Below are positions 57,972-61,177 of a stretch of DNA of 64,000 bases, piece by piece. The stretch lies in NCBI RefSeq assembly GCF_009720625.1, contig NZ_CP046266.1, positions 3,791,501 through 3,855,500 of the forward strand. Reading direction: 5' to 3'. Position numbers and translations under genes: made by a program. Source of the stretch: Metabacillus sediminilitoris (GTDB taxonomy: Bacteria > Bacillota > Bacilli > Bacillales > Bacillaceae). The notes under the pieces were generated by a model. The model was not told the origin of the DNA. It made no database searches and worked only from the letters and a program-made list of their open reading frames with translations. The first letter of the stretch is position 1. The number at the start of each line of letters is the position of its first letter.

Positions 57972-58628
57972 TCATTCCAAGTTTGAAAAGTCTGCAAGAT
58001 CTTCCCTATTTCCTATTACGACTAATAAATCTCCATTATGAATATTTTGATCTGGTGAAGGTGATATGATGATATTTCCATCCCTAACAATGGCGATTAC
58101 ACTAACATTATATTTAGCCCTTATGTCAAGGTCCCTTAAACTCTTTTCTGCCATCCATGATGGAACAATAATTTCTTCTATATTATATTCTTTTGACAAT
58201 TCAATGTAATTTAACATATTTGGTGATAGTAACTGATTAGCAACACGTTCTCCCATGTCACGTTCAGGATAAATAATCCAATCAGCCCCTACCTTATCTA
58301 ATACTTGACCATGGTTTTTCCCTAAAGCCTTTGCAATAACTTTTTTAACACCTAGTTCCTTTAAGAGCAGCACAGTTAAAATACTCGACTGCATATCATT
58401 TCCAATTGCTACAATAACACAATCAAAATTGCGAATACCTACAGAAATTAGTGCCTTTTCTTCTGTGGTATCAGCCACGACTGCATGTGTTACATAAGAT
58501 ACAGCTTCATCCACTCGTTCCTCATTTACATCCATTCCTAAAACCTCTTGCCCAGCCTCTTGTAATCTTCTTGCTACACTTACTCCGAATCTTCCTAATC
58601 CTATAACTGCATATTGTCGTTTAGCCAA
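57972..58628 (-). CDS. ktrA: Potassium uptake RCK subunit, KtrA/KtrC family
   Basis: 218 residues, a second Ktr ring protein and paralogue of the one at 25.4 kb. RCK_N nucleotide motif GLGRFGVS at 9-16 and RCK_C from about 130 (EYNIEEIIVPSWM onwards). It gates the KtrB channel encoded just upstream in response to ATP/ADP and c-di-AMP in known homologues. The start is TTG 58628 with AAGGGAG 10 bases upstream, 25 bases after ktrB. The gene order is channel first, the reverse of ktrAB in B. subtilis. Confidence 0.88.
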   Translation of the reverse strand: MAKRQYAVIGLGRFGVSVARRLQEAGQEVLGMDVNEERVDEAVSYVTHAVVADTTEEKALISVGIRNFDCVIVAIGNDMQSSILTVLLLKELGVKKVIAKALGKNHGQVLDKVGADWIIYPERDMGERVANQLLSPNMLNYIELSKEYNIEEIIVPSWMAEKSLRDLDIRAKYNVSVIAIVRDGNIIISPSPDQNIHNGDLLVVIGNREDLADFSNLE

Positions 58629-58653: not shown

Positions 58654-59985
58654 TTAACCGATCATAATCTTTCCTCTAGGATGACGGAATGCATCTGGTT
58701 TCCGCCTCATCGCGATAGCAAAGCCAATTGTTAATGGACCAAGTCTACCAGCAAACATCGTAAAAATAATAAGTAATTTGCCAAGAGGAGATAGTTCCGG
58801 TGTTAATCCCATTGATAGCCCTACTGTCCCAAAGGCAGATGTAGCCTCAAATAAATACATAAGAAAATCGAAATCCTTTTCAGTGATACTAAGCAGCATT
58901 GTCATGATGATGACCAGAAATAACCCACTAACTGTTACAGTTAGTGCTTTTAGTATTGTTTCCATTACTATACGTCGTTTAAATAATACAACATCCTCTT
59001 TCCCTCGAATTTGAGACCAGACAGATGCAATTAATACAACAAAAGTAGTTATTTTAATACCACCGGCAGTTGATCCGGGGCCGGCACCAATAAACATAAA
59101 TATGATCGTCAGGAATAATGTTGATTGGGTTAAATCTCCAATTGGCAACGTATTAGCACCAGCTGTACGCGGAGTGACAGCTTGAAATAATGCTCCTAAG
59201 CCTTTTCCTGAAATGGATAATGGTGCTAACGTATTCTTGTATTCTAAAAAGAAGATAAATATGGTTGCACTACATGTTAATATGATCGTTGTAAACAATA
59301 CTACCTTCGCATGCATGGATAATCTATGGGTATCACGATATTCATAAAGTTCGTTCATCACAATAAATCCTAACCCGCCTAATGTAATTAGGGAGCACAC
59401 TGTAAGTACGACTGTTGGATCATCTACGTAAGGTGTAAGACTCCGAAATCCACCCATTAAATCAAAACCGGCATTATTAAACATTGATATCGCATGGAAA
59501 AAGCCATAATAAACAGCTTTCCCAATTGACATGTCAAAAGAAAAACGAATGGCTAATATTATTCCACCAACACTTTCAATTACTGCCGTAAATATTAAAA
59601 TTCGCCTTACAAACTTTACAATCCCTTCGATTGTTAGATTATTTAATGATTCTTTTAATAGTAATCTTTCTTTTAATGAAATCTTTTTCCCTAATAAGAA
59701 AAAGAAAAAAGTTGCAAATGACATAAAACCTAATCCGCCAATTTGAATGAGCGTTATTATTACCAACTCACCAAACATCGAAAATGTATCTGCTGTATCT
59801 ACCACAACAAGACCTGTCACACATGTTGCAGAAGTAGCAGTAAATAAAGCGTTAATAAACGAAAGTCCGTTGCCATCTTCTGTCGCGATAGGAAGAGTCA
59901 ATAAAAATGTCCCTAAAAGAATGAGCATCGCAAAGCCTAATACAAGAATTTTCGGCGGATCAAGAGTAATGTTTAATTTTTTCAT
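58654..59985 (-). CDS. ktrB: Potassium channel-like membrane subunit KtrB/KtrD
   Basis: 443 residues of the Trk/Ktr/HKT superfamily. The four pore-loop repeats are visible: TATSATCVTGLVV (about 50-62), AISMFNNAGFDLMG (about 166-179), AVTPRTAGANTLPI (about 271-284) and EATSAFGTVGLSMG (about 388-401), each with the pivotal Gly of the selectivity filter. It imports potassium, driven by membrane potential with sodium help. Sequence does not separate KtrB from KtrD; I use ktrB because an RCK gene follows. ATG 59985 with AGGAG. A c-di-AMP riboswitch precedes it. Confidence 0.92.
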   Translation of the reverse strand: MKKLNITLDPPKILVLGFAMLILLGTFLLTLPIATEDGNGLSFINALFTATSATCVTGLVVVDTADTFSMFGELVIITLIQIGGLGFMSFATFFFFLLGKKISLKERLLLKESLNNLTIEGIVKFVRRILIFTAVIESVGGIILAIRFSFDMSIGKAVYYGFFHAISMFNNAGFDLMGGFRSLTPYVDDPTVVLTVCSLITLGGLGFIVMNELYEYRDTHRLSMHAKVVLFTTIILTCSATIFIFFLEYKNTLAPLSISGKGLGALFQAVTPRTAGANTLPIGDLTQSTLFLTIIFMFIGAGPGSTAGGIKITTFVVLIASVWSQIRGKEDVVLFKRRIVMETILKALTVTVSGLFLVIIMTMLLSITEKDFDFLMYLFEATSAFGTVGLSMGLTPELSPLGKLLIIFTMFAGRLGPLTIGFAIAMRRKPDAFRHPRGKIMIG

Positions 59986-60137
59986 TGTCTTCTCCTAATG
60001 TGTAAATTTTGGCGATTTACCCCAAAAATAATTATGTAAACGTTCTGAAACATAAAGATTTTTCACTAAAATTTAAGAACTCTTTAATACTTTCTCCTAC
60101 CTCTTTACTAATTATTTGAATCATTTTCATTAAAAAA

Positions 60138-60277
60138 GACCAATGGTTACCTTTTTCTCCAAAGTTTGTAATGCAATTGTACAATCATTCTTATTTGATC
60201 TGTATGATCAGTAAAAGAAAGATTGAACGTATTGTAAAAGCAAACTATTTGTATTGGAGAAAAAGAACCCATTGGTC
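60138..60277 (-). repeat. 140-base imperfect inverted repeat in the ktrB leader
   Basis: On the minus strand GACCAATGG..TTCTTTTTCTCC (60277-60256) pairs with GGAGAAAAAGG..CCATTGGTC (60160-60138). The region between keeps pairing with interruptions (AGTTTG/CAAACT, CAATC/GATTG, TGATC/GATCA). It is followed by TTTTTTAATG, so it resembles a giant terminator, or a small inserted palindromic element. An open frame across it (60398-60147) has no ribosome site and is rejected. Confidence 0.7.
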
Positions 60278-60397
60278 TACTTAACGCCCAGCTAGCCTTC
60301 AGGCTTTCTTTGCGTTCTGTCTTCCACGAATCTTTTTCAAATATAGGTATGAAAAAAAGACCTACGTATCGCTCAAGCTGCTCTTTTGCTTTACACA

Positions 60398-60571
60398 CAA
60401 AAAAGCCCCCTGAAATAAGGTGGTCTTATGACCTCCTTCGCTTTAGCCGACGAAGTTAGCTGACGGGTAGGATGGCGAAAGAGTATCACATCCCTTCTGC
60501 ATTTGCAGAATTAACCCCAAAAAAATGGGTCCTCCGTTCTCAATTTCTTGAGATTAGACTGTTATGAATTT
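60398..60571 (-). promoter_or_regulatory. c-di-AMP riboswitch (ydaO-yuaA class) with terminator
   Basis: The minus strand holds the class's conserved blocks in order: GAACGGAGGACCC, TTGGGGTTAATTC, a variable hairpin, GGGATGTGATAC, CATCCTACCCGTCAGCTAAC and GCGAAGGAGGTC. Directly after, AAGGAGGTCATAAGACCACC and AGGGGGCTTTTTTG supply overlapping stems and a T-run for an on/off terminator. In B. subtilis this RNA controls ktrAB and kimA and is turned off by c-di-AMP, whose level follows potassium. The boundaries are approximate. Confidence 0.92.
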
Positions 60572-60587
60572 GTTATTGATCAGGATT

Positions 60588-60616
60588 ATTTTACGCTCGC
60601 TTTTGTTCGTTGTAAA
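60588..60616 (-). promoter_or_regulatory. Promoter of the riboswitch-ktrB-ktrA transcript
   Basis: TTTACA (60616-60611), 17-base spacer, TAAAAT (60593-60588) on the minus strand, about 10-15 bases before the riboswitch. The predicted leader is close to 600 nt. Confidence 0.78.
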
Positions 60617-60802: not shown

Positions 60803-61177
60803 ATGCTACAATCCAAAAAGAAATTAGAGTCTGAAATCAGTGCAGCATTTATTAAGTTCCAGCGTGATCTAATCGGCAGGGGCCCACAGGAAGCAAAAAC
60901 GTATATTATTAGTGATATGTTGATTACTCGTTTCAAAGGTGTTCTGACAGTTGAAGAAAAGCACCTTGTGAATCGTGATTCAGGAAAAAAACTAGTAAAA
61001 AAAATGCGTGCACTTCTTCGTGAAATGTACAGTAATGATTATGAAAAAATTGTTGAAGAATATACTGGTTGTAAGGTTCTTTCCTCTCACAGTGATATTA
61101 GTACAAAGACAGGTGAACGAATTGAGGTATTTATTTTGGATAAAAATTTCGAAAAAATGATAGAAAGCACAAAATAA
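60803..61177 (+). CDS. DUF2294 protein
   Basis: 124 residues from ATG 60803 with CGGAGG 4 bases upstream, preferred to an in-frame start at 60716 that has none. The pattern ESEISAAFIKFQRDLIGRGP then VRD-like NRDSGKKLVKKM, with GRGPQEAKTYIISDMLITRF, marks the DUF2294 family found across Firmicutes, sometimes annotated as Na+-translocating membrane potential-generating system MpsC. It is soluble here. Divergent from the ktrB transcript. The activity is not known from sequence. Confidence 0.8.
   Translation: MLQSKKKLESEISAAFIKFQRDLIGRGPQEAKTYIISDMLITRFKGVLTVEEKHLVNRDSGKKLVKKMRALLREMYSNDYEKIVEEYTGCKVLSSHSDISTKTGERIEVFILDKNFEKMIESTK

Follow-up and report, generated by a model that had tools for sequence, protein, structure and literature searches.

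The DNA segment of Metabacillus sediminilitoris analyzed here (GCF_009720625.1, contig NZ_CP046266.1, positions 3,791,501–3,855,500 of the forward strand; coordinates below are positions in this 64,000-nt window) contains the K+ uptake genes ktrB (58654–59985), for a TrkH-family protein (TIGR00933, 382 bits; PF02386), and ktrA (57972–58628), for a TrkA-N/TrkA-C regulatory subunit (PF02254, PF02080). Both genes and all parts of the ktrB leader are on the minus strand, with the ktrB start at position 59985 and ktrA following. This leader comprises a riboswitch for cyclic diadenosine monophosphate (c-di-AMP), which is of an already known kind, followed by a second, switch-like and apparently undescribed RNA element, which in many Bacillus-like bacteria is situated between such a riboswitch and K+ uptake genes. 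Divergently from the leader, on the plus strand, lies a gene for a 124-aa DUF2294 (Pfam MpsC) protein (60803–61177; PF10057, 129.5 bits against a cut-off of 23), which we propose, from its co-occurrence with the element, as the partner of the latter.

The aptamer of the c-di-AMP (ydaO) riboswitch (60430–60570) matched RF00379 with 77.5 bits, above the gathering score of 38, confirming its original prediction in this leader. Right behind it the sequence contains a short hairpin, AAGGAGGTC ATAA GACCACCTT (60417–60438), which may act in the expression platform, and a first U-tract, AGGGGGCTTTTTTG (60398–60411), the presumed riboswitch terminator T1; box A, GTAGGTCTTTTTTTC (60351–60365), is counted with the riboswitch platform. 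The second element includes an antiterminator-like hairpin, P1/P2, GGAAGACAGAACGC...GGCGTTAAGTAGACC (60274–60325), and a long terminator hairpin, T2 (60138–60277), which is followed by a TTTTTT tract (60132–60137). Upstream of the aptamer, a promoter-like sequence, TTTACA-17-TAAAAT (60588–60616), agrees with the consensus in 10 of 12 positions and is rightly placed for the leader; it is one of seven such sites found, against 6.7 in shuffled sequences, which is not above chance.

The long inverted repeat ending in TTTTTT had been noticed in the original prediction as a second control point, a processing site or an insertion resembling a miniature inverted-repeat transposable element (MITE). The repeat is real, with arms at 60137–60155/60260–60278 (84 %) and 60151–60162/60254–60265 (100 %), and the RNA from 60290 to 60125 folds with −56.7 kcal/mol, compared with −26.6 ± 3.5 kcal/mol for 200 shuffled sequences (z = −8.7), none of which equaled it. 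A simple terminator scan, permitting loops of 3–8 nt only, reported no site. A palindrome of ca. 140 bp would suit a MITE; however, in its own 5.6-Mb genome the query had no matches other than to itself, to its palindrome and, at E 0.12 or worse, to short pieces, leaving no copy besides that of the ktrB leader. Because the inverted repeat is single-copy, and with covarying homologs in the corresponding position after the riboswitch in many genera, we give practically no credence to its being a MITE-like insertion.

A DNA search of the family matched 20 of 80 genomes; besides the leader under study, 13 contained the element (L114–L126), while L127, cut by a contig end, is a ktrB leader with the riboswitch and without the element, and short matches (L128–L132) were left outside the element count. 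A covariance model, R1, built from the core of the family leaders, matched 40 of 397 genomes in the order set (E ≤ 0.01). One of these, G042 (L198), was judged a chance match because it has neither the terminator arm nor a protein of the DUF2294 subfamily described below, and its removal left 39; the matches in G011 (L032) and the second one in G067 (L197), the latter also without terminator arm, were likewise rejected. In the class set, R1 matched 37 of 398 genomes (E ≤ 0.001), the two sets together amounting to 70 element genomes, with six common to both. The gene downstream of the element, identified by tblastn at 74 loci, is kdpA in 62, ktrB in six and neither in another six; four of the latter (L153, L157, L191, L195) contain the start of an alike permease, which belongs to PF13520 in L153, the only one tested. 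No match to the element was found in phages, and the plasmid matches of the leader (Peribacillus sp. R9-11 and two Alicyclobacillus) correspond to the riboswitch only. In Rfam, the element had only sub-gathering matches in the window (MIR821, RMST_10 and ES036), and 20 element-only loci matched only eukaryotic microRNA models, also below gathering, the best being MIR5998 in L222 with E 0.00072 and 31.4 bits (gathering score 180). The model of the Na+-I riboswitch, a family presumably included in Rfam 15, gave no match up to E 5 in the window or in these 20 loci.

Small proteins of 130–134 aa with a TrkA-like motif near their end are also encoded downstream of the element in L114, L115, L116 and L208 (6793–7185); the two proteins with this motif that were tested (L207:1106–1621 and L208:6793–7182) had no Pfam match. 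In L208 (4349–5010), a copy of the element precedes a gene whose 114-aa product has an Nlig-Ia-like domain (45.8 bits), with an aspartokinase-like open reading frame (ORF) recognized by eye and no K+ transporter. A stretch of ca. 60 nt downstream of the element in L169 (1718–1779) is a dispersed repeat, present at ten places in one plasmid record of Paenibacillus cellulosilyticus (best 87 %).

In the related leaders compared, many genera have kept the element, and its sequence shows compensatory changes. The T2 stem is followed by a T-rich tail in the 79 copies scored, their 3′ arm having been picked partly by T content, and its fifth pair is A-U in 65, G-C in 10, C-G in two and G-U in two of them; L119 and L121 were missed by the search pattern, three weak matches were excluded, and L200:2033 was kept despite a wrong 3′ arm. 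With a stem directly followed by a U-tract, T2 has the form of an intrinsic terminator and is predicted to terminate transcription. Conservation, compensatory changes and the T-rich tail thus support the second control point of the original prediction, in which the overlap of T2 with P1/P2 and the link to DUF2294 had gone unseen. A leader peptide was considered for ORF 60147–60398 (83 aa) and rejected, as it had no NCBIfam match and the length of the hairpin varies among copies, no systematic comparison of ORFs having been made.

The alignments place T2 as the terminator half of a conserved RNA element of ca. 190 nt, the other half of which is the P1/P2 hairpin (60325–60274), whose terminal GACC (60277–60274) constitutes the first four bases of T2. 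Among 68 aligned copies, 12 of the 15 pairs of P1/P2 changed on both sides, with 102 two-sided change cells against 29.6 ± 3.7 in shuffles, and standard pairing occurred in 96.9 % of the cells, compared with 20–32 % for slid structures; these figures lean towards the P1/P2 model because the alignment was fitted to it. Two purine mismatches are nearly invariant, G·A in columns 9/82 (68 of 69 copies) and A·G in columns 20/72 (68 of 70), as counted in alignment A3, which leaves out two opposite-strand palindrome matches; the upper part of P2, on the other hand, varies strongly in distant members. By this comparative evidence P2 is a genuine covarying helix. An RNA processing or stability site, for RNase III or similar, could account for such a long duplex (73–176 nt among copies, with variable arms); nevertheless, it would not explain the T-rich tail or the overlap of the two hairpins, and we deem it very improbable.

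The GG/CC pairs of P1 and the GACC/GGUC pairs at the foot of T2 draw on the same bases, so only one of the two structures can form. When the hairpin was folded alone, P1 had a predicted probability above 0.5 in 78 of 80 sequences; with 25 further nt the number dropped to 28, and in the full element to zero, T2 winning in 79 of the 80. This analysis excluded four matches. Forcing P1 costs 5.9–13.6 kcal/mol (median 10.0; 78 sequences, from a run that excluded six matches). The overwhelming stability of T2 could suggest a constitutive second terminator or damper that responds to no signal, with P2 as a mere structural spacer. This is improbable, since a plain terminator does not need the conserved and covarying bases of P1/P2.

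RF00379 occurs directly upstream of the element, on the same strand, in 70 of the 71 first copies scanned (the exception being L186), nine class loci (L170–L174, L176–L178, L183) being outside the scan. This association, together with the GGUC/GACC words present in both, could indicate that element and riboswitch constitute a single c-di-AMP expression platform, and box A could, by eye, pair with a GACC behind the aptamer. However, there are element copies without a riboswitch of their own (L186/L209, and the second copies in L193/L208, L200/L207 and L187/L206) and riboswitches of the same subtype without the element, in L127 and in the Peribacillus plasmid L230. The element is therefore a separate module, and a single platform appears quite improbable. 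The GGTCTTT of box A was found at most 170 nt upstream in 78 of 79 core copies, and the four riboswitch-less copies, not included in that count, lack it. Box A was thus discarded as the antiterminator strand, being absent from these copies and retained in the two element-less leaders (GGTCTATTT in L127). The riboswitches linked to the element are mostly variant, with GGGUUAAU and CCUACCCG instead of the GGGUGAAU and CGAACCCG of others, and score 65–85 bits against 89–106 for other nearby copies; ten element-less leaders are also variant, in a tally that took L116–L118 as element-less, although they carry the element under other identifiers.

DUF2294 proteins were found in 124 of 397 genomes of the order set (E ≤ 1e-18), 40 of them with at least 65 % identity and the rest with no more than 44 %, so that, as judged by protein identity, the subfamily is sharply bounded. 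All 39 element genomes of this set hold a gene of the subfamily, 312–754 nt from the element, and only one further genome, G097, has the protein with no element detected by R1. In the class set, the subfamily gene occurs in 44 of 398 genomes, including the 37 with the element; it is 2.8–7.8 kb from the element in nine element genomes and on another contig in G523. Conversely, no subfamily gene was found beside any of 37 element-less K+ loci, consisting of 17 ktrB loci (2.5-kb flanks), L127, L230 and 18 kdpA loci (1.5-kb flanks), some of them with the riboswitch motif. The latter came from 29 kdpA loci, of which seven have the element in the flank (five with DUF2294 also) and four were set aside, L245, L246 and L248 for having the element further upstream and L261 for being a fragment. 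Six unlinked DUF2294 paralogs are only 24–27 % identical. From these genome comparisons, the element accompanies one DUF2294 subfamily almost without exception. The genome of M. sediminilitoris has two further DUF2294 paralogs (G000 C1:2750012 and C1:2128905) unlinked to the element, and its kdpA (L252, C1:1080676) has neither riboswitch motif nor element within 1.5 kb.

The eight genomes with only the protein were expected to hold a divergent element. A refined model, R2, built from 68 copies, matched beside the gene in seven of them (L326 and L330–L335; E ≤ 0.001). The eighth (L336) reached only 12.2 bits, with a chance match in L230 at 12.1, although a hairpin, a GACC and a GGTC-T5 end can be seen by eye between its duf2294 and ktrB. 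In 44 control loci (217 kb), R2 gave no match at E ≤ 1; the unlinked DUF2294 paralogs among these loci were limited to L285–L291, with the remaining DUF2294 proteins, of up to 44 % identity, outside the linkage test. Downstream in all eight genomes there is kdpA, ktrB or a KimA-type APC permease, KimA proper being established for L334 only, by comparison of its permease to the solved KimA structure 6s3k (E 1.9e-234).

Six operons are ordered riboswitch, element, duf2294, element and K+ transporter, the latter being kdpA in L206, L207 and L335, ktrB in L333, KimA in L334 and a KimA-like permease in L337. Their riboswitch was identified with Rfam in L206/L207 (as L187/L200) and by a short motif in L333, L334, L335 and L337, and the second element copy matches only weakly in L333 (E 0.055) and in L335 (E 0.062). 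Unlike in these co-directional operons, duf2294 is divergent in the window.

We consider it an evenly balanced proposition that the ktrB leader consists of two attenuators in series, the second of them probably operated by the DUF2294 protein. The first would be the c-di-AMP riboswitch with its own terminator T1, and the second the P1/P2 hairpin with T2. P1/P2 would fold first, while the polymerase is still transcribing the long interval that separates the two T2 arms; if P1/P2 were held, the four T2 pairs beside the U-tract would be blocked and transcription would continue into the K+ uptake genes, and if not, T2 would form and transcription would stop. The DUF2294 protein from the adjacent gene is the most likely holder, because the element is distributed like DUF2294 and not like the riboswitch or the transporter; it would bind RNA, in a genetic arrangement like that of PyrR or LicT, in answer to some signal of K+ or osmotic need. 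Expression of the K+ uptake genes would then require both low c-di-AMP and the DUF2294 signal. Less certain is the sign of this control: since P1/P2 overlaps the terminator, holding it should let transcription through, which suggests antitermination. With somewhat less confidence, falling just short of an even chance, we propose that one DUF2294 subfamily constitutes a novel type of transcription-attenuation regulator, which binds RNA and serves K+ uptake specifically.

Several observations temper this proposal. PF10057 was the only Pfam domain in the DUF2294 protein, with no CAT/PRD or phosphoribosyltransferase domain, and a sequence search against solved structures had a best E of 0.53; RNA binding has no support from the fold, because the confidently predicted structure showed no clear relative in fold searches. 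The genomes are related, and the linkage of DUF2294 with the element is partly shared inheritance, so that the values from Fisher tests of this linkage should not be taken as probabilities of function. The predicted dominance of T2 and the cost of P1 would indicate that the control is kinetic or involves a strong binder, or else count against a switch.

A less probable alternative takes P1/P2 to be the aptamer of a riboswitch that directly senses some ion or small molecule involved in K+ or osmotic homeostasis, with T2 as its platform and DUF2294 as a mere member of the regulon. The conserved purine mismatches, the overlap with the terminator and the K+ genes downstream agree with it, and Na+-I riboswitches show the same logic beside c-di-AMP riboswitches, according to the available text of PMC9337991. 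It leaves unexplained, however, the absence of duf2294 from element-less K+ loci and the finding of the element in the protein-only genomes, and the upper part of P2 is much changed in distant members.

The DUF2294-controlled attenuation proposed here has parallels in known systems. In the LicT/BglG family, the ribonucleic antiterminator (RAT) is a hairpin of about 30 nt that overlaps the terminator arm, and LicT contacts two bulges in its RNA hairpin. As in these systems, the P1/P2 hairpin has internal loops and would be stabilized by a protein against a terminator; in contrast, it has 52 nt, and the CAT/PRD domains were not found in DUF2294. For the pyr operon of Bacillus subtilis, the available text of PMC7430163 describes attenuation regions before pyrR, pyrP and pyrB. 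The six operons with two element copies similarly have the putative regulator gene flanked by putative attenuators, but DUF2294 is no phosphoribosyltransferase, the element had no Rfam match above gathering, and the sign of control would be different. Tandems of Na+-I and c-di-AMP riboswitches also place two terminators in series, combining c-di-AMP with a second input before osmotic genes, although the second input is upstream of the c-di-AMP riboswitch in those covered by the available part of PMC9337991. In the kdp operon of B. thuringiensis, a 370-nt leader of the same riboswitch family precedes K+ uptake genes, with one terminator, 143 bp before the kdpF start, and no second element described in the accessible portion of PMC6488665. 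A review of tandem riboswitches includes Na+-I/c-di-AMP and c-di-AMP doublets and, in its available text, nothing resembling the element (PMC9481103), and the main text of a survey of 26 genomes, as far as accessible, contains no kdp, ktr, potassium or DUF2294 (PMC8632094). The open-licence PMC literature, a weak indication of absence, yielded no description of the element, of a K+ riboswitch or of such a role for DUF2294/ybcI.

In these bacteria, the regulation of K+ uptake transcripts is viewed in terms of c-di-AMP. If the proposal is true, a further checkpoint on those transcripts would imply that they respond to another signal as well, and its conserved protein partner would offer a handle to find that signal. 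It would also provide a testable role for a protein family that is labeled only as a DUF or after a homologous membrane-potential system.
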